A stretch of DNA of 32,533 nt from Planctomycetaceae bacterium (lineage in GTDB: Bacteria > Planctomycetota > Planctomycetia > Pirellulales > Pirellulaceae). The notes under the pieces are model-generated. The model saw only the letters and a program-made list of their open reading frames with translations. It searched no databases and had not been told where the DNA came from. Positions within the stretch are counted from its first letter, which is position 1. Each line of letters begins with the position of its first letter. The position numbers and the translations under genes were made by a program. The stretch is taken from positions 1 to 32,533 of the forward strand of contig SKZY01000013.1 of assembly GCA_007127095.1 (NCBI GenBank), read 5' to 3'. Positions 14,822 through 24,973 of this stretch are shown here, piece by piece.

Positions 14822-15652
14822 TCAACAGGCGACCGCATCGTGCGGAATTCCCTTGGCCATTTCTTGGACCAACACGTCGGGACGGATCGGCTTGCGAAAC
14901 CAGCGGTCGACACCGTCGGAGCCGACCGGTACTTCGCAAGATTGCTGATCTTCGCCGCTGACCGCGAAAACCCGCATCTCACGGGTCTTCGGATCGCTGC
15001 GAATCGCTTCGATCGTCCCGCGTCCGTTGAGTCCGGGCATGTTCATGTCCAACAGGACGATGTCGGGCAATTTAGAAGCTTGACGGATCAAACGGAGCGC
15101 CGCGTTACCGTCGAGAGCCGTGGCTACTCGGAAACCGAACTGGCGGAGAAATCCGGCCATCAACGAGTTTTCGTTTTCGTTGTCGTCGATCAACAGCGCC
15201 AGCGGCAATGCGCCCTTCTTACCGACCTGTTCCAGGTCCGGCGGGGTGCTGGTGTCCTGCAGCGTCTCTTCGATCAACGCCAGTTCGTCGATCGCTCCGG
15301 TCAACAACGAATCGTCGACCAAGCCGTCCTCGCGACTCGCCTTCTTCCGCAACAGGTGAAGGGCGATCGTCAGGGTGTTGATCCGATTGCGGAGTTCGTG
15401 CTCACGCTGTCGGGCCCCCGAGGTTTGTGCGGCCGACTCCTGCTCGGCCGACTGAAAAGCGGCCGAAAAATCGGCCGACACATCACCCTCGAGGTCCTCC
15501 TGAGTCGCGATCTCTCCACGGAGTACGCGGATCGAATCGGGGGCAGCGATACCCAGCGAAACCGCCTTTCCGCGCAGTCGTGTGATCTCGATTCGGATCC
15601 CCAACTTCGGAAAAACGATCGCTTCTTGTTCTCGTCTCGATAGCACTAGCAT
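14822..15652 (-). CDS. CsrA - HisKA-like helix - receiver fusion (RNA-binding response regulator)
   Basis: A 276-residue protein. Residues 1-50 are a complete CsrA domain (MLVLSRREQEAIVF, then RGKAVSLGIAAPDSIRVLRG) with the RNA-contacting Arg6 and Arg45 (equivalent to Arg44) kept, while the usual His43 is Leu. A Ser/Gln-rich linker leads to a long helix at about 80-135 that contains REHELRNRINTLTIALHLL, similar to the H-box of histidine kinases (His85), but no ATPase domain follows. Residues about 150-270 are a receiver domain: acidic pair Asp156/Asp157, phospho-acceptor Asp202 in LLDMNMPG, Ser232 and Lys254 in FRKPIRP. I chose ATG at 15652 because the CsrA domain starts there and GGAG lies 8 nt upstream; the open frame extends 89 codons further but without homology. 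It is divergent from a hybrid histidine kinase, its likely partner. It probably represses or stabilises mRNAs under phosphorylation control; targets are unknown. Confidence 0.88.
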   Translation of the reverse strand: MLVLSRREQEAIVFPKLGIRIEITRLRGKAVSLGIAAPDSIRVLRGEIATQEDLEGDVSADFSAAFQSAEQESAAQTSGARQREHELRNRINTLTIALHLLRKKASREDGLVDDSLLTGAIDELALIEETLQDTSTPPDLEQVGKKGALPLALLIDDNENENSLMAGFLRQFGFRVATALDGNAALRLIRQASKLPDIVLLDMNMPGLNGRGTIEAIRSDPKTREMRVFAVSGEDQQSCEVPVGSDGVDRWFRKPIRPDVLVQEMAKGIPHDAVAC

Positions 15653-15781
15653 GGCAGGTCTCCAACCCTTGGCGGTTCCGATCCTCTTCCCGCTACCGAT
15701 CCCGAAGACCCAATCCCCGGTGATCCTTCGCTGGGACGTTTTTGATCGCTTCCCTGCTGCATACGAGCGCTGCTCGAATCC

Positions 15782-15810
15782 TTGAGCAGGCTGATCGCAA
15801 AGGTTATAAC
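15782..15810 (+). promoter_or_regulatory. Sigma-70-like promoter for the hybrid histidine kinase
   Basis: TTGAGC (15782-15787) and TATAAC (15805-15810) are separated by exactly 17 bp, matching the sigma-70 consensus at 4 and 5 of 6 positions. The expected start near 15817 leaves a leader of about 70 nt before the kinase ATG at 15887, which has a strong AGGGAGGA ribosome site. The -10 lies inside a 10-bp palindrome GGTTATAACC (15802-15811), so the opposite strand also reads TATAAC at 15803-15808 and could serve the divergent CsrA-receiver gene. The -35 on that strand is weaker. Confidence 0.55.
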
Positions 15811-15886
15811 CGCTACAGGTATGAAGCAATAGCGATTTTCCGCCGCAGATCGTCAGCTTTTGAATCCGCGTCATCAGGGAGGAACC

Positions 15887-18800
15887 ATGACATCGAAGTC
15901 GAGCGAAGATCAACCGCAACCGGGCACCGCCGAGACGGCGGACTCAGATCGCGATCAGCCACGGGATCTGACTTGCGAGCCTCAGCAGGCGGTCGATCAG
16001 GGTGACGCCGATTCGGCGGTTCAGCTCGATCTATTGCTGAGCGTTTATGACACGCTGCTCGATCGTTACATGCCGCCGTTGATCTTGATCGACGGTCGTC
16101 GACGGGTGATCGACACGTTCGCGGGGGCGGACCGATTTCTGCGTTTCGGCTCGCGTCGCCCCTCGCAGAACCTACTCGAATTGCTGATCGAACCGCTGCG
16201 ATCCCCGGTCGCCGATGCTTGCTCGCACTGTGGCGCGACCGGCCAATCGGTATTGACCGAGCCGATCGTGGTCACTTTGGCCGATTCGATCCAAGACCCA
16301 CTCGACCGTGGTCTGCCGGCGACGGGTGACGCCGCCAGTTTTGACCGCGTTCGGGCGCGGGTTACACCGGTTCCGCACCGTCGCAGCGACCTGCCGTTTT
16401 TCTCGGTGCAGTTCGAACCGGCTGAGACGTCGGGAACGGGGCTATCGGTCGCCTTGCCCGTGCGACACCCGGAGGCGCAGAAATTGTCGCGACGGCAGGT
16501 CGACTTTACCCGCAATGCCCCCAGTGTCGTTCGCGAACCGGGCGAATGGCTCAATCGGGCGGCGGGCGAAGCCGACGGCATGTTGTCGTTAATCGAGTTG
16601 ACCGGCGTAGCGGTTATTTTCCTTGACGGTGACCTGCGGATTCGCCGCTTCACGCGCCCCGCGGGCCGGCTTTTCGGCCTGCTGCCACACGACATCGGCC
16701 GCCCAATCCAGACGTTCGCCGGGGCGATCGAGTCGACCGACATGGTCGACCGTCTGCGGCAAGTGATCCAGACCGGTGACGCCGATGAGTTCGAAATTCA
16801 CCAGCCCAAACTCGGCAAATACATCGTCGCGCGAGCCGTCTCCGGCGGCGGCAACGTCGATGACGGTTTGGTGTTGACGCTGATCGATCTCTCATCGCAG
16901 GAACAGCGGCACCGCGAGGTTCAACAGCTATCCAGCATTGTCCATTCGAGTGCCGATGCGATCATCAGTCGCGATTGTGACAATCGGATCGTGACCTGGA
17001 ACGCCGCTGCCGAGGAGATGTACGGGTATGCCGCCGATGAGGTGATCGGCAAGACGATCGATCTGCTCGTTCCCGATACCGAGTCGGTCGAGCAACTCAA
17101 TGTCCAACGGGTCTTCGGACGCGACCCACACATCGATCACTTCGAGTCGTCGCGAAAGACGAAGGGCGGGAAACTGACTCGGGTTTCCGTCAGGCTGTCA
17201 CCGATCTACGACGACGAAAATCGGGTCGTCGGCCTGTCGACGATCGAACGTGACATGTCCGAAAAGGTGGAACTGGTCGCCAAGCTCTCGCAAAGCGAGC
17301 GGATTCTGCAGGCGTATTACGAACAGTCACCGGAGCTCTATTGCACGCTTGACATTTCCAGCGGGTTGATCACCGATTGCAACGAGGCGATGGTACGACG
17401 ACTCGAGGTGCCCAAGGATGAAATCGTCGGCCGCTCGGTACTCGATTTCCAAACCGAAGCGACACGGGAAAAGGCCCGCCACTGCATCGAACGTCTCCGT
17501 GAGACCGGGATGCTTCACGGAGAAGAACTCGAACTGCGGCGGAGTGGTGGCGAGGCGCTGCCGGTTTCACTCTGCGCCACCGGCATCTTCGATACCGGTG
17601 GTCGGATCGTCGGCGCCCGAGGCGTGTGGCGTGACCTGTCGGCGTTGCGGGTCAAGGACGAACTGATCCGCAAGGGCGAGGCTCGTTATCGCCAAGCGTT
17701 CCAAACCAGCGCGATCGGGATCGCCCATTGCGATCTGGACGGGAAGTACACATTAGCCAACAAGCGATTGTGTGACATCCTTGGCTATTCGTTCGAGGAA
17801 CTTTCGCGACTCACTTTTGGAGAAATCACCCACCCCGAAGACCTGAGTCACGAACTCGAGCTGCGGCGGCGACTGATCGCCGGAGAGATCGACACGTACA
17901 AGCTCGAAAAACGGTATGTCCGACGGTCCGGGGGTGAGGTTTGGGTATCGGTGTTCGTCTCGCTCGAACGCGATTCGGGCGGCAAGCCGTACGCCAGCCA
18001 CTCCTACGTCGAGGACATCTCGTCCCGTAAGGAACTGGAGAGCGAATTGCGGTCGGCGATCCAGCAGCGAGACCAATTCTTGGCGATGTTGTCACATGAG
18101 CTACGTAATCCGCTCGGCGCGATCCTCAACACCTGTGCCGTGGTGACTCGGCGAAAGGGGTTTGCCAAGCCGATGCAAAACGCGATCTCGATCGTCACCC
18201 GGCAGGCCCGCCAGATGGCCGACCTGCTCGACGACCTGCTCGACGTCAGCCGAATCACGACCGGAAAGATCAAGCTGGAAAAGACACCGATCGATCTCGC
18301 CCAGGTCGCCGATGAGGCGATCGAATCGCAGCAATCTCTGGCGGCGTCCCGCGGTCAGCGTCTCGCGGTTACTTACTGCGACGAGGCGTTGCAGGTATTC
18401 GGCGATCGCAGCCGGCTTGTTCAGGTCGTCGTCAACCTGCTCAACAACGCGATCAAGTACACCGGTGACGGTGGACTGATCACGGTGACACTCGAGAAGA
18501 TGGGACGGACCGGCCGGATCCGTGTCAAGGACAACGGTGTCGGCCTCGAACCCGAACAGATCGAGTCGTTATTCGAGATGTTCGCTCAGAAAAATGCGAC
18601 CCTCGATCGTTCCGGCGGCGGGATGGGGCTGGGGTTGCACCTGGTGAGGAAATTGGTCGATTTCCATTCGGGGCGAGTGATCGGGCGGAGTGAAGGATTG
18701 GGCAAAGGGAGTGAATTCATTGTCGAACTGCCGCTCTCGTCACGACGATCGGCTGCCGACCGGACTGGCCCCGTGCCTCGCTTACCAAGGCGATCGAAAG

Positions 18801-19156
18801 TCAAGCGGATCGTTGTCGTCGAGGACATCGATGACGCCCGCAATATGCTCGTCGCGCTACTCGAGGCCGACAACTACCAAGTCAGTTCGGCGGCCGATGG
18901 CGAAGCCGGCTTACAGATGATCCTCCGCGAACAACCCGACTTGGCGATCGTCGATATCGGGTTGCCAAAACTTGACGGCTACCAGGTGGCTCGTGAAGTT
19001 CGCACCCGCATGCCCGAGTCGCAGATTCGCTTGATCGCGTTGACCGGCTATGGGCAGGAATCGGATCACGAATTGGTGATTAATGCCGGCTTCGACACGC
19101 ACTTGGTCAAGCCGTTGAATCACACACGACTCGAAAAAATCCTCGCCGGGACCTAA
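15887..19156 (+). CDS. Multi-PAS hybrid histidine kinase with C-terminal receiver
   Basis: A 1089-residue sensor without transmembrane segments. A low-complexity N-terminus (1-40) is followed by two PAS-like domains (about 45-180 and 230-340) of the type found in CheB-CheR-PAS chimeras (LLDRYMPPLILIDGRRRVID; VAVIFLDGDLRIRRFTRPAG). Three ordinary PAS domains follow at about 345-460, 470-590 and 600-715. The HisKA H-box is SHELRNP with phospho-acceptor His737. The HATPase domain has the N-box LLNNAIKYT, DNGVGL and GGGMGLGL (to about 950). The receiver (about 970-1085) has Glu979/Asp980, phospho-Asp1023 in VDIGLP, Thr1053 and Lys1075. ATG 15887 is chosen over an upstream TTG because of the strong AGGGAGGA site. 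The divergent CsrA-receiver protein is the obvious candidate for onward phosphotransfer, although a separate HPt step may be needed. Signals are presumably cytoplasmic. Confidence 0.93.
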   Translation: MTSKSSEDQPQPGTAETADSDRDQPRDLTCEPQQAVDQGDADSAVQLDLLLSVYDTLLDRYMPPLILIDGRRRVIDTFAGADRFLRFGSRRPSQNLLELLIEPLRSPVADACSHCGATGQSVLTEPIVVTLADSIQDPLDRGLPATGDAASFDRVRARVTPVPHRRSDLPFFSVQFEPAETSGTGLSVALPVRHPEAQKLSRRQVDFTRNAPSVVREPGEWLNRAAGEADGMLSLIELTGVAVIFLDGDLRIRRFTRPAGRLFGLLPHDIGRPIQTFAGAIESTDMVDRLRQVIQTGDADEFEIHQPKLGKYIVARAVSGGGNVDDGLVLTLIDLSSQEQRHREVQQLSSIVHSSADAIISRDCDNRIVTWNAAAEEMYGYAADEVIGKTIDLLVPDTESVEQLNVQRVFGRDPHIDHFESSRKTKGGKLTRVSVRLSPIYDDENRVVGLSTIERDMSEKVELVAKLSQSERILQAYYEQSPELYCTLDISSGLITDCNEAMVRRLEVPKDEIVGRSVLDFQTEATREKARHCIERLRETGMLHGEELELRRSGGEALPVSLCATGIFDTGGRIVGARGVWRDLSALRVKDELIRKGEARYRQAFQTSAIGIAHCDLDGKYTLANKRLCDILGYSFEELSRLTFGEITHPEDLSHELELRRRLIAGEIDTYKLEKRYVRRSGGEVWVSVFVSLERDSGGKPYASHSYVEDISSRKELESELRSAIQQRDQFLAMLSHELRNPLGAILNTCAVVTRRKGFAKPMQNAISIVTRQARQMADLLDDLLDVSRITTGKIKLEKTPIDLAQVADEAIESQQSLAASRGQRLAVTYCDEALQVFGDRSRLVQVVVNLLNNAIKYTGDGGLITVTLEKMGRTGRIRVKDNGVGLEPEQIESLFEMFAQKNATLDRSGGGMGLGLHLVRKLVDFHSGRVIGRSEGLGKGSEFIVELPLSSRRSAADRTGPVPRLPRRSKVKRIVVVEDIDDARNMLVALLEADNYQVSSAADGEAGLQMILREQPDLAIVDIGLPKLDGYQVAREVRTRMPESQIRLIALTGYGQESDHELVINAGFDTHLVKPLNHTRLEKILAGT

Positions 19157-19333: not shown

Positions 19334-19675
19334 TTAATAATCGCGATCACGTCCGCCACCGCCGCCGCCGCGGTAGCCGCCGCCACCACCACCGCCACGG
19401 TATCCGCCGCCGCCACCGCCACCGCGGCGTTCTTCACGCGGCCGAGCTTCGTTGACGGTCAACGTCCGTCCCGACAGCTCACGCCCGTTGAGCGCCTCGA
19501 TCGCTTCGTCAGCGCCGCTATCCATTTCGACGAACGCAAAGCCGCGACTGCGACCCGTTTCTCGATCGGAAACGACCGACGCATTGGCAACCTCGCCGAA
19601 CTCCCCGAACGTGTCGCGAAGTTCGTCCGATGTCGTGTTGAACGACAAATTGCCAACGTAAATTCTCTTACCCAT
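19334..19675 (-). CDS. RRM glycine-rich RNA-binding protein
   Basis: A 113-residue protein. A single RNA recognition motif spans residues 3-80, with RNP2 IYVGNL and RNP1 RGFAFVEM carrying the aromatic RNA-stacking residues. The C-terminal 30 residues are a glycine-rich tail with repeated GGGGGYRG units, ending RDRDY. It resembles the cyanobacterial Rbp and plant glycine-rich RNA-binding proteins, which bind single-stranded RNA and often respond to cold. AGGA lies about 9 nt before the ATG at 19675. The gene converges on the hybrid kinase, and a gene-free 586-bp region precedes it on its own strand, leaving room for a long regulated leader. The Gly tail is encoded by a GC-rich repetitive stretch at about 19340-19430 that may vary in length. 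Confidence 0.93.
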
Positions 19676-21068: not shown

Positions 21069-21269
21069 CCGCTTGGTGATGTGCGAGAAATGGTTTCCGG
21101 CGATTCGTCCCATTATGCGTGGGATCGCATCCGTACATTCTTCCTGCGCAGCGCTAAGGGGGGCGAATTCCTTGCAAGCCGGCCGGTGGGGCGTTAGGCT
21201 CGTCAGAGTGGCTTGCTCCCACGGCCCTCCTTCACGCTTTGCCCTCCACCCTCCTGCCCCGATTCTGCT

Positions 21270-23636
21270 GTGCGCTGCCCGATCCTCTTTCGCTCGCTGA
21301 TCTCGGCCGTTTCGTTTTTCTGCCTGATGGCGAGCGACCAAGTTGCTGGTATAGCTCCCCTTCAAGCCGCTGAGGTCCCGTCGTTCACCAACGATGTCCA
21401 GCCGATTCTGACTCGGTACAACTGCAATTCCGGCGGCTGTCACGGCAAATTGGCGGGGCAGAATGGGTTCCGGCTGTCGCTCCGTGGCTACGCCCCCGAA
21501 GACGACCACAAATCGCTCGAGCAAGCCGAATTGGGACGGCGGATCAATCTGCTGGCCCCCGAGCAAAGTCTGATCTTGCAAAAGGCCACCGGCAAGGTTT
21601 CCCACGGCGGCGGCCAACTGTTCGAATCCGACAGCCTTCCCTACAAGACGTTGACCGCCTGGATCGAAAACGGGGCCCCCGGTCTTCGTGAAGACGAACC
21701 GCGGGTCACCGAAATCGCCACCAGCCCGACCAACGTCACGCTCACTCCAGGCGATCGACAACGGCTTGAAGTCCGGGCGACCTACAGTGACGGTTCCCAA
21801 CGGGACGTGACCTCATTGGCCCAGTTCCACTCCAACGATACGGCCTTCGCCACGGTCAGCCCCGAGGGGCAACTCGCGGCCGAGCGGCATGGTGAGGTTT
21901 CGATCGTGGTCTCGTTCCAGGGATTGGTCGATACCGTCGTCCTGACGATGCCCTACGAACACCAGATCGATCCGGAGGACTTTGCCGCCCGCTCGAATTT
22001 CATCGACGACCATGTGATGGAAAAACTGCGGTCGCTACGGATCCGACCCTCGCAATTGTGCGACGACACGACCTACCTGCGGCGGGTGATGCTCGACCTG
22101 ATCGGGACGTTGCCGGCGCCGGAGGAGGTTCAGCAGTTTCTCGCAGACCAGTCGTCCGATAAACGCGAACGCTTGGTCGATCGGCTGTTGGATCGACCCG
22201 AGTTCGTCGATTATTGGACCCTGCAACTGGGAGACCTACTGCAGAACCGAAAGGAACGTGACCACGACGTTCGCGGAGTGAAGGGGGTCCGTGGGATGCA
22301 CGCTTGGCTTCGCCGACAGGTGGCCGAGAATCGGCCCTGGAACGAGTTGGCTCATCAAGTCCTGACGGCCAGTGGCCCGAGCGATACCAACCCGGCGGTC
22401 GGCTACTTCGTGGTGACCGTCGGCGAGAAAGAAGCCAAAGATTCCGAAGTGGCTGACTCGGTTGCCCAGGCATTCTTGGGCACGCGGATCGGCTGTGCCA
22501 AGTGCCACAACCACCCGCTGGAAAAATACACCCAGGACGACTACTACCACTTCATCGCCTTCTTCTCGCAGGTCTCGTTGGATCGCAAGCCTCCGACCCA
22601 AGGCCCGACCGTCCTCAAACAGGGCACCCGACACCTGCGGAACCTCGAAAAGCGGCTTCAAAACGAAGAGCAAGAGTTGCAAAAGCTTCGCGAAGAAAAA
22701 GCCGAGGATCGTCAAATCGAGAAAAAGGTACAGCGGCTCAAACAGTTGCGAGACGAGATCCGCAGCGCCCGCGAAGCACCGCCGACGGTCAATCAACCTC
22801 GGACCGGACAGCCGTTGCCCCCCCAAACTTTGGACCGCGCGGCGATGGAGATTCCGCCTGGGGTCGATCCCCGAGTCTCGCTAGCCGAATGGATGACTTC
22901 TCCGGAAAACAAGGCCTTCGCTGGCTCGATGGTTAACCGGTTGTGGAAACACTTTTTTGCCGTCGGATTGGTCGAACCGGTCGATGACCTCCGCGATACC
23001 AACCCTCCCAGCAACGGTCCGCTGTTCGAGGCCCTGATCGCCGAATTGATCGACTCGAATTACGACCTGCGGCATGTCATGAAGCGGATCGTGACCTCCC
23101 GGACCTACCAACTCGACTCCGCCACTCTGCCCCAAAACGCCACCGACTCGCGGTTCTATTCGCACTACTACGCCAAGCGACTGCCGGGCGAGGTCCTGCT
23201 CGACGCCCTCGTCCAGGCGACCGGGGTACCTGAGACCTTTCCAGGCTATCCCCACGGCACCCGTGCCGCCCAGCTACCGGGCCCCCAGATCGATTCCTAC
23301 TTCCTGACCACCTTCGGCCGCTCGGAACGCGTGACTGCCTGTGCCTGCGAGCGTTCGGGCGAAGTGACCCTCTCGCAACTGTTGCACCTGCAAAACAGCG
23401 AGAATTTGCTCAGCAAGGTGCGTGCCCCTCAAGGCAACCTAGCCCGGTGGGTGGAGACGACCGAGTCGCCCGATGAGTTGATCGAGCAACTATTCCTAGC
23501 GACCTACAGTCGGCCGCCGAGCGACGCTGACCGAGAATTCCTCCGCCAGCAATTCGATGATGCCGATCGGATGGAAGTCGCCAGCGATCTGTTTTGGGCG
23601 CTGCTTAACGCTAAGGAATTCACCTTCAATCACTAA
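21270..23636 (+). CDS. DUF1549/DUF1553 protein with cytochrome-like and Ig-like domains
   Basis: A 788-residue exported protein of the planctomycete PSD1/DUF1549-DUF1553 family. A signal peptide (ILFRSLISAVSFFCLMAS to PLQAAE) is followed by a cytochrome-like domain with CNSGGCH (Cys52, Cys57, His58, so CX4CH rather than CX2CH). Next come a bacterial Ig-like segment (about 150-245: LTPGDRQRLEVRATYSDGSQ), DUF1549 with a classical CAKCH near residue 409, a charged coiled coil at about 455-500 (LEKRLQNEEQELQKLREEK), and DUF1553 (SLAEWMTSPENKAFAGSMVN to the end). GTG at 21270 gives a compact signal peptide; a TTG at 21213 would add 19 residues. The three-gene operon is common in planctomycetes, and its function is unproven, though redox or polysaccharide-related envelope roles have been suggested. 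The DUF1501 gene starts 8 bp after its stop. Confidence 0.93.
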   Translation: MRCPILFRSLISAVSFFCLMASDQVAGIAPLQAAEVPSFTNDVQPILTRYNCNSGGCHGKLAGQNGFRLSLRGYAPEDDHKSLEQAELGRRINLLAPEQSLILQKATGKVSHGGGQLFESDSLPYKTLTAWIENGAPGLREDEPRVTEIATSPTNVTLTPGDRQRLEVRATYSDGSQRDVTSLAQFHSNDTAFATVSPEGQLAAERHGEVSIVVSFQGLVDTVVLTMPYEHQIDPEDFAARSNFIDDHVMEKLRSLRIRPSQLCDDTTYLRRVMLDLIGTLPAPEEVQQFLADQSSDKRERLVDRLLDRPEFVDYWTLQLGDLLQNRKERDHDVRGVKGVRGMHAWLRRQVAENRPWNELAHQVLTASGPSDTNPAVGYFVVTVGEKEAKDSEVADSVAQAFLGTRIGCAKCHNHPLEKYTQDDYYHFIAFFSQVSLDRKPPTQGPTVLKQGTRHLRNLEKRLQNEEQELQKLREEKAEDRQIEKKVQRLKQLRDEIRSAREAPPTVNQPRTGQPLPPQTLDRAAMEIPPGVDPRVSLAEWMTSPENKAFAGSMVNRLWKHFFAVGLVEPVDDLRDTNPPSNGPLFEALIAELIDSNYDLRHVMKRIVTSRTYQLDSATLPQNATDSRFYSHYYAKRLPGEVLLDALVQATGVPETFPGYPHGTRAAQLPGPQIDSYFLTTFGRSERVTACACERSGEVTLSQLLHLQNSENLLSKVRAPQGNLARWVETTESPDELIEQLFLATYSRPPSDADREFLRQQFDDADRMEVASDLFWALLNAKEFTFNH

Positions 23637-23644
23637 CGGCCATC

Positions 23645-24973
23645 ATGTTCCATTTTTTTTCGGATCGAAGTTCGATCGCCAGCCAAGGTTTGTCACGCCG
23701 CAACTTTCTCCGGATCGGTGGTCTGTCGCCACTGGGCATCAGTTTACCAGGCTTATTAGCCGCCCAAGCCGACGCCGACGCTGACAACGTTCCACGCGGC
23801 CGAGCCAAGTCGGTGCTGCTGGTGTTTTTGGGAGGAGGCCTTTCGCATCACGACTCCTTCGACCTCAAACCGGATGCCGCCGAGGAAATTCGCGGCAAGT
23901 ATTCCTCGATCGAGACCAATGTCCCAGGCCTACGGATCGGCGAGTTGTTGCCGAAAATGGCTCAAACCATGGACAAGGTTTGTCTGGTCCGCAGTGGCGC
24001 CCACAATAACGATCACCACGAAACCGCGACTAACTGGGTTCTCTCGGGTCGCTTCGGGACGCCATTCGGCGATTGGCCCGCGATGGGAGCGGTCGCCTCA
24101 CACGAGTTCGGTTTTGATGGGACCCTGCCACCCTACGTCGCTATCCCGAATAATCCCTCCTTCACCTGGGAACTTGGCAAGAGCGCTTTCTTGGGCGGAC
24201 GCTGCGAATCGTTCAAAGTGGGAAATCCCAACGATCAAGACTTTCGTGTTCGCGATTTGTTCTCGCCCGAGCAGTTCACGGAAACGCGGGTCCAGCGTCG
24301 ACAATCGATCTTGGAAACGGTCGACCAGTTGGCCCGCCGAGTCGAAGGTAGCGACGCGATCGACTCCTACGATCAATACCAGCAGCGTGCGACCTCGATG
24401 GTCCTGTCGCCCAAGGCCCGCGAGGCCTTTGCGATCGAGCGTGAGTCGGATGAAATTCGCGAGCGGTACGGCCGCAACACCTTTGGCCAAAGCTGCCTGA
24501 TGGCTCGGCGACTGATCGAAGCCGGTGTGAAGTTCGCCACGGTTAACTACGCCGGTTGGGATCACCACGGGAAAATCTTCGAGAATCTCGACAACAAGTT
24601 GCCGGAGTTCGATCTCGGTTTCTCGGCCCTCATCGACGACATGCATCAGCGCGGCCTGCTCGAAGATACGCTGGTCGTCTGCATGGGAGAGTTCGGCCGG
24701 ACTCCCAAGATCAACAAGGATGCCGGTCGCGACCACTGGGGCCCCGCCGCCTCGCTGCTGTTCGCCGGTGCCGGCGTACAACCCGGACGTGTGATCGGGG
24801 CCACCGACCGCGATGGCGCCTTCGTTACGGAGAATCCATTCGCTCCGGCCGATGTCGCGTATACCGTGCTCAGCTCGCTGGGTATCGATCCTCGTAAACA
24901 ACTGTTTACGGGCGATGGACGACCGGTCGAAATCCTCGAAAGTGGCCGCCGGATGGAGGAACTTTTCAGTTGA
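23645..24973 (+). CDS. DUF1501 protein with Tat signal
   Basis: A 442-residue protein. A twin-arginine signal (LSRRNFLRIGGLSPLGISLP, about residues 16-35) predicts folded export. The body matches DUF1501, an alkaline-phosphatase-fold family: SVLLVFLGGGLSHHDSFDLK, a GAHNNDHHETATNW block, a middle with SCLMARRLIEAGVKFATVNY, then GWDHHGKIF, VVCMGEFGRTPKINKDAGRD and HWGPAASLLFAG. The conserved Asp/His clusters look like metal ligands, but the reaction is not established for the family. It lies 8 bp after the DUF1549 gene and overlaps the next gene by 4 nt, so the three are translationally coupled and probably work together in the envelope. Confidence 0.94.
   Translation: MFHFFSDRSSIASQGLSRRNFLRIGGLSPLGISLPGLLAAQADADADNVPRGRAKSVLLVFLGGGLSHHDSFDLKPDAAEEIRGKYSSIETNVPGLRIGELLPKMAQTMDKVCLVRSGAHNNDHHETATNWVLSGRFGTPFGDWPAMGAVASHEFGFDGTLPPYVAIPNNPSFTWELGKSAFLGGRCESFKVGNPNDQDFRVRDLFSPEQFTETRVQRRQSILETVDQLARRVEGSDAIDSYDQYQQRATSMVLSPKAREAFAIERESDEIRERYGRNTFGQSCLMARRLIEAGVKFATVNYAGWDHHGKIFENLDNKLPEFDLGFSALIDDMHQRGLLEDTLVVCMGEFGRTPKINKDAGRDHWGPAASLLFAGAGVQPGRVIGATDRDGAFVTENPFAPADVAYTVLSSLGIDPRKQLFTGDGRPVEILESGRRMEELFS

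Follow-up and report, generated by a model that had tools for sequence, protein, structure and literature searches.

Can a histidine kinase act directly on a CsrA-type RNA-binding protein? The question is raised by a locus in a 32,533-nucleotide stretch of DNA from a Planctomycetaceae bacterium (contig SKZY01000013.1 of assembly GCA_007127095.1; the window, hereafter), where a gene encoding a CsrA domain, a linker and a receiver domain (REC) in one chain lies divergent to the gene of a hybrid histidine kinase. CsrA is normally a small free protein titrated by small RNAs or FliW, and this genome carries four other CsrA loci and one FliW. Judged from sequence comparison and structural modeling, the fusion could be a response regulator that binds RNA and contains its own phosphotransfer domain, fed by a hybrid kinase phosphorelay, a reading for which we consider the chances evenly balanced. 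The idea of a relay gains from an H-box histidine in the linker, which a preliminary description of this locus had missed. Given the adjacency to kinases, outside signals may switch RNA binding directly rather than via small RNAs.

The CsrA-REC fusion and its linker

The fusion gene and its parts are located as follows:
14822..15652, (-) strand: CsrA-linker-REC fusion gene, 276 residues, start ATG 15652, stop 14822-14824
15500..15652, (-) strand: CsrA domain, residues 1-51 (Pfam CsrA PF02599, E 4.2e-13)
15254..15439, (-) strand: linker hairpin with DHp-like H-box, residues 72-133 (structure prediction and profile alignment)
15398..15400, (-) strand: His85 codon, proposed phosphotransfer histidine (H in 112/150 homologues)
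14861..15196, (-) strand: REC, residues 153-264 (Pfam Response_reg, E 8.6e-17)
15047-15049, (-) strand: Asp202 codon, REC phospho-acceptor

The frame is uninterrupted from start to stop. The listed open reading frame (ORF) of 14822-15919 is too long, beginning at a TTG upstream of ATG 15652, which itself opens the MLVLSR of CsrA; this motif is present in five sequences of the genus. Both domains named in the preliminary description were matched in Pfam, and the receiver residues that it had singled out, D156/D157, D202, S232 and K254, were found at exactly those positions, providing the acidic pair, phospho-acceptor aspartate, Ser/Thr and lysine of a two-component REC. The CsrA domain passes the cut-off of PF02599 (49.5 versus 27 bits) and lies below the equivalog cut-off of NCBIfam csrA (35.3 versus 70.1 bits).

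Conservation was assessed in 150 CsrA+REC ORFs in 139 loci, taken from the window and 139 fetched regions, of which 59 (discovery) were hand-picked from matches in related genomes and 80 (new) from phylum and family matches, full-length ones first; some lower-scoring matches (e.g. G571, G582, G585, G591 and G602) were left out. In the CsrA domain, R6 and G34 are kept in 150/150 homologues and R45 in 149/150, while a smaller set retains L4 in 57/60 and R6 and R45 in 60/60 each. We take L4, R6 and R45 to match RNA contacts of E. coli CsrA (R6 and R45 in strands 1 and 5), with R45 presumably equivalent to its R44. In the REC, the conserved residues are D157 (134/150), D202 (145/150), S/T232 (138/150), K254 (133/150) and W251 (145/150). 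With D or E accepted at 157, the full set of four REC positions is intact in 108 of the 112 homologues bearing the linker histidine (His-bearing) and in 21 of the 38 lacking it (His-less). The intact receiver noted earlier in the window's fusion is shared by most homologues. By their sequences, the CsrA and REC ends both look functional.

The segment between these domains contains a conserved stretch with the consensus H-x-L-R-N-R-L-N (HELRNRIN in the window), in which R88 is kept in 124/150 homologues and N89 in 105/150. N89 tracks His85, with Asn in 100/112 His-bearing versus 5/38 His-less members, and the His and Asn of this H-box are among the most conserved positions of the linker. Three fusions (in L077, L228 and L238) have almost no linker. 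When hhalign was used to compare the linker profile with a DHp profile from the kinases of these loci, the two aligned His on His at Prob 96.4 (E 1.2e-9), against Prob 1.0 for the reversed profile and 4.0 for the best of 30 column shuffles. Pfam and PDB scans covered 44/59 linkers, mostly His-bearing. In Pfam at E up to 1, HisKA was the commonest match (16 of the 44, best E 5.3e-6), followed by families matched at most five times each (DegS, a tetratricopeptide family and others, with SPOB_a in 3), and searching PDB sequences with this profile gave a designed protein as the best match (E 0.0053).

Structurally, AlphaFold2 predicts helices at residues 60-106, containing His85, and 114-133 in the full fusion, and at 72-106 and 114-135 in the linker alone. 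The mean predicted local distance difference test (pLDDT) score is 78-83 for residues 81-130 and 49-54 for residues 51-80. The predicted template modeling (pTM) scores of the two models are 0.50 and 0.56, and the domain arrangement was used from neither; at a pTM of 0.50, the arrangement of the fusion is not fixed by the model. Foldseek with the whole model gave receiver proteins in the 50 rows listed. The middle segment is predicted to form a helical hairpin whose H-box resembles that of kinases, the arrangement known from DHp and Spo0B/ChpT-type phosphotransfer domains. Since the Pfam scan found no ATPase domain in the fusion protein, the hairpin should not be a kinase, and a role in phosphotransfer or dimerization remains.

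Occurrence in relatives and partner kinases

The preliminary description had named two ways in which the fusion might prove spurious, absence from relatives and a sequencing error joining two genes. The fusion is conserved, occurring in 5/5 genomes of the genus searched and matching over nearly the whole profile in at least 92/241 genomes of the family, a lower bound given that many family genomes are fragmented; full-length matches also recur in a search of 147 related genomes. An artefact is ruled out by the 5/5 genus genomes and by the 150 open homologues from 139 loci. In a phylum draw of 392 genomes, matches through the linker were found in 16 among the matches listed, all of them among the 40 same-class genomes listed with a match, and none of the matches listed spanned the linker outside the class; the query consisted of 30 rows, all His-bearing, and so undercounts His-less fusions. 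A GTDB-wide scan using receiver motifs yielded at least 18 loci with the full fusion, some on contigs identical to those already in the relatives' set, and the titles of those listed name Planctomycetota in 17 cases and a "bacterium" in one (Bythopirellula, Isosphaera, Thermoguttaceae and others). When 72,556 plasmid records and 50,697 phage records were searched with the CsrA+linker part, nothing matched at E 1e-5, and these searches give no sign of a mobile origin. One His-less subgroup, mostly of a single genus (L281, L282 and rows G590-G614 of the family search), has family-profile matches that cover query 1-183 to 1-200 only and so break off within the receiver, which suggests a diverged REC.

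Upstream of the fusion in the window lie two further features:
15653..15886, (.) strand: intergenic spacer separating the fusion and kinase genes, conserved in part (alignment of five genus loci)
15887..19156, (+) strand: multi-PAS hybrid histidine kinase, about 1089 residues, with PAS stretches, HisKA, HATPase_c and C-terminal REC (Pfam)

The Pfam matches bear out the divergent multi-PAS hybrid kinase proposed earlier, whose probable start is ATG 15887, preceded by GGGAGG. The intergenic alignment of the five genus loci contains conserved blocks and no recognizable motif. A divergent kinase adjoins the fusion in 4/5 genus loci, and in the fifth (L037) the sequence stops 1.3 kb upstream of the fusion frame.

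Across the homologue set, a histidine kinase gene lies within 1 kb of 86/150 fusions, in four gene arrangements (25, 25, 21 and 15 cases); among the first 60 members this applies to 30 (10 convergent, 7 divergent and 13 tandem). The density of kinase genes within 1 kb, compared with beyond 3 kb, is 0.26/kb versus 0.009/kb in the discovery loci and 0.39/kb versus 0.020/kb in the new loci, a 19- to 30-fold enrichment. Scanned using Pfam, the partners comprise multi-PAS, CheB-CheR-PAS and DUF4118 hybrids, a PAS hybrid with two RECs, CheB-CheR-PAS kinases without REC and HAMP kinases. Conserved adjacency to the window's kinase type, which the preliminary description had put forward for testing, stands for histidine kinases in general, but not for one type, and a single conserved kinase type is ruled out by the multi-PAS, CheB-CheR-PAS, DUF4118 and HAMP kinases. 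Clustering of the neighboring ORFs was uninformative, its largest cluster mixing fusions and kinases.

By count, whether the nearest kinase is a hybrid goes with the linker histidine. Each fusion was paired with its nearest kinase within 1 kb, a rule set on the discovery loci, and partner RECs were called using a custom profile; one kinase that runs off its contig (L263) was set aside. The nearest kinase is a hybrid for 68/71 His-bearing versus 1/14 His-less fusions, comprising 24/25 versus 0/5 in the discovery loci and 44/46 versus 1/9 in the new loci (Fisher p 3e-7 in the latter), and of the more distant kinases of these loci, 5/12 are hybrids. For the His-less fusions, 6 of the 13 partners called REC-less were run through Pfam, which found no REC in any. 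Eleven loci (L225, L230, L233, L234, L237, L239, L228, L238, L077, L081 and L243) carry two fusions 2.2-10.6 kb apart, and in 8/11 the kinase nearest to the His-less copy is REC-less and that nearest to the His-bearing copy a hybrid; the full contrast is not seen in L077, L081 and L243. The two kinases of L233 both belong to the CheB-CheR-PAS type. Where two-fusion loci were mapped, the fusions are often separated by one to three large kinases or kinase-like proteins, such as a CheB-CheR-PAS protein without kinase core at L233:8645-11230.

A candidate phosphorelay and its alternatives

A hybrid kinase normally requires an HPt to reach a second REC. By sequence, all parts of such a relay are present at the locus, namely hybrid kinase, H-box hairpin and terminal REC; the genome encodes 6 Hpt domains, 5 of them in frames of 886-1291 residues. 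In the proposed relay, the divergent kinase would sense a signal via its PAS domains and autophosphorylate, and the phosphate would pass from the histidine of its DHp to the aspartate of its own C-terminal REC, from there to His85 of the DHp-like hairpin, and finally to Asp202 of the fusion's REC. The hairpin would in effect be an HPt placed inside the terminal regulator and working like Spo0B or ChpT; by dimerizing, it would also hold the REC beside the CsrA dimer. The phosphorylated REC would then alter, in either direction, CsrA binding at GGA-type sites near ribosome-binding sites. In His-less fusions, the phosphate would come straight from a REC-less kinase. More broadly, and with somewhat less than an even chance in our estimate, Planctomycetota may possess signal chains that end in CsrA, a Spo0B/ChpT-like histidine hairpin and a REC within one chain, so that kinases control mRNA use directly, the His-less neighbors with REC-less kinases being parallel two-component versions.

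Several observations weigh against a relay through the linker. Regarding the hairpin, removal of the H-box columns lowers the DHp match to Prob 2.5, and 35 His-less linkers alone give Prob 2.4, so that, as far as profile comparison goes, the DHp similarity of the linker is the H-box itself, with no likeness found beyond it. At the same threshold (E up to 1), HisKA is not matched by the linker of the window's fusion, which gives a weak DegS match only, and Foldseek with the linker returned nothing significant (best E 0.32). Regarding the kinases, 64/150 fusions have none within 1 kb, and Pfam confirmed only part of the partner REC calls. When any kinase within 1 kb is counted, a hybrid lies near 5/14 His-less versus 68/72 His-bearing fusions, and the pairing of His with hybrid therefore depends on the choice of the nearest kinase; four of these five His-less fusions (L225, L230, L233 and L234) belong to double loci, with the hybrid 0.8-0.9 kb off on the far side, and the fifth is L280. 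Even under the nearest-kinase rule there are exceptions, namely L084, L210 and L261, where a His-bearing fusion has a REC-less nearest kinase, and L280, where a fusion with Phe has a hybrid. Moreover, in a tree of the 150 members built without linker columns, the histidine changes 10 times, but the 85 members with partners account for just 4 of these changes. Of the independent pairs, 2 were supported when taken one way (1 concordant, 1 tied; p 1) and 3 when taken the other way (about 1 concordant, 2 tied; p 1), and 10/13 REC-less cases belong to a single His-less clade with 15 members (support 86). The His/hybrid pattern is clustered by descent, so that counts favor it strongly and independent evolutionary changes weakly.

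The alternative that fares best, which we regard as possible though rather doubtful, is a plain two-component output: the kinase would phosphorylate the REC of the fusion directly, or via its own REC and a separate HPt, while the hairpin only dimerizes and His85 is a relic of a DHp. This explanation is consistent with the absence of the histidine from 38/150 fusions, 21 of which keep all four REC positions, with the three almost linker-free fusions, with the REC-less nearest kinase of 13/14 His-less fusions and with a tree-aware test of the His/hybrid link that is not significant, but it leaves aside the joint retention of the H-box His and Asn in 100/112 members, at positions among the most conserved of the linker, and the hybrid nearest kinase in 68/71 His-bearing cases. 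It is improbable that the REC acts independently of phosphate, as an interaction or dimerization module whose adjacency to kinases is inherited synteny. D202 is kept in 145/150 homologues and all four positions in 108/112 His-bearing ones, and the kinases next to the fusion are of different types and lie in four gene arrangements; the points in favor of such a module are the loss of at least one REC position in 17/38 His-less and 4/112 His-bearing members and the 64/150 fusions without a kinase within 1 kb. Finally, a CsrA domain that has lost RNA binding and serves only as a dimer interface is very improbable, since the score under the NCBIfam cut-off and the conserved FP motif of its first loop, presumably unlike E. 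coli CsrA, are set against retained RNA-contact residues and a score above the Pfam cut-off.

Relation to known systems and neighboring genes

The phosphorelay reading places the fusion beside several known regulators. The preliminary description had singled out the locus as a candidate for an undescribed system, which does not hold for the domain pair: a REC + CsrA output architecture was already named in PMC2222644 (2007), citing a 2006 classification (Galperin, J Bacteriol 188:4169), and the passage of PMC2222644 on this pair names no linker H-box, no partner kinase and no mechanism. A literature search, with most subscription papers outside it, found no functional study of a CsrA-REC fusion and nothing on the linker histidine or on hybrid partners. 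REC + CsrA is therefore not new, and the new aspect is the putative phosphotransfer hairpin built into an RNA-binding response regulator.

ANTAR outputs are likewise coupled to REC in response regulators. Those of the AmiR/NasR type, EutV and PdtaR share with the fusion an RNA-binding output and control after transcription initiation (PMC3369931 and PMC12471899, in part). By comparison, the CsrA output of the fusion, which should affect translation or mRNA stability, lies N-terminal to the REC with the H-box hairpin in between. Free CsrA/RsmA, controlled by CsrB-type small RNAs under BarA/UvrY or GacS/GacA, also has conserved RNA-contact residues and a kinase upstream (PMC8523701, in part), whereas the kinase here would be expected to act on the CsrA protein and not on small RNA transcription. 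Spo0B and ChpT hairpins pass phosphate between RECs without kinase activity. In Bacillus Spo0B and Caulobacter ChpT, an H-box histidine is similarly located on a helical hairpin (PMC3433190 on ChpT, in part), but the hairpin of the fusion is built into the terminal response regulator and lacks a degenerate ATPase domain. If CsrA is indeed fed by a kinase, mRNA translation would be under direct two-component control in a phylum, Planctomycetota, whose regulation is little studied. Paralogues with and without the histidine, lying next to different kinases, open the relay to direct testing.

Just past the kinase and convergent with it, at 19334-19675 (-), the window encodes a small protein that is rich in glycine and has a single RRM domain. 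It adds another RNA-binding protein to the fusion locus, and a relative adjoins the kinase in the genus loci L036, L038 and L039. PSCyt2/PSD1 and DUF1501 genes lie adjacent to each other at 21213-24973 (+), a gene pair typical of Planctomycetota.
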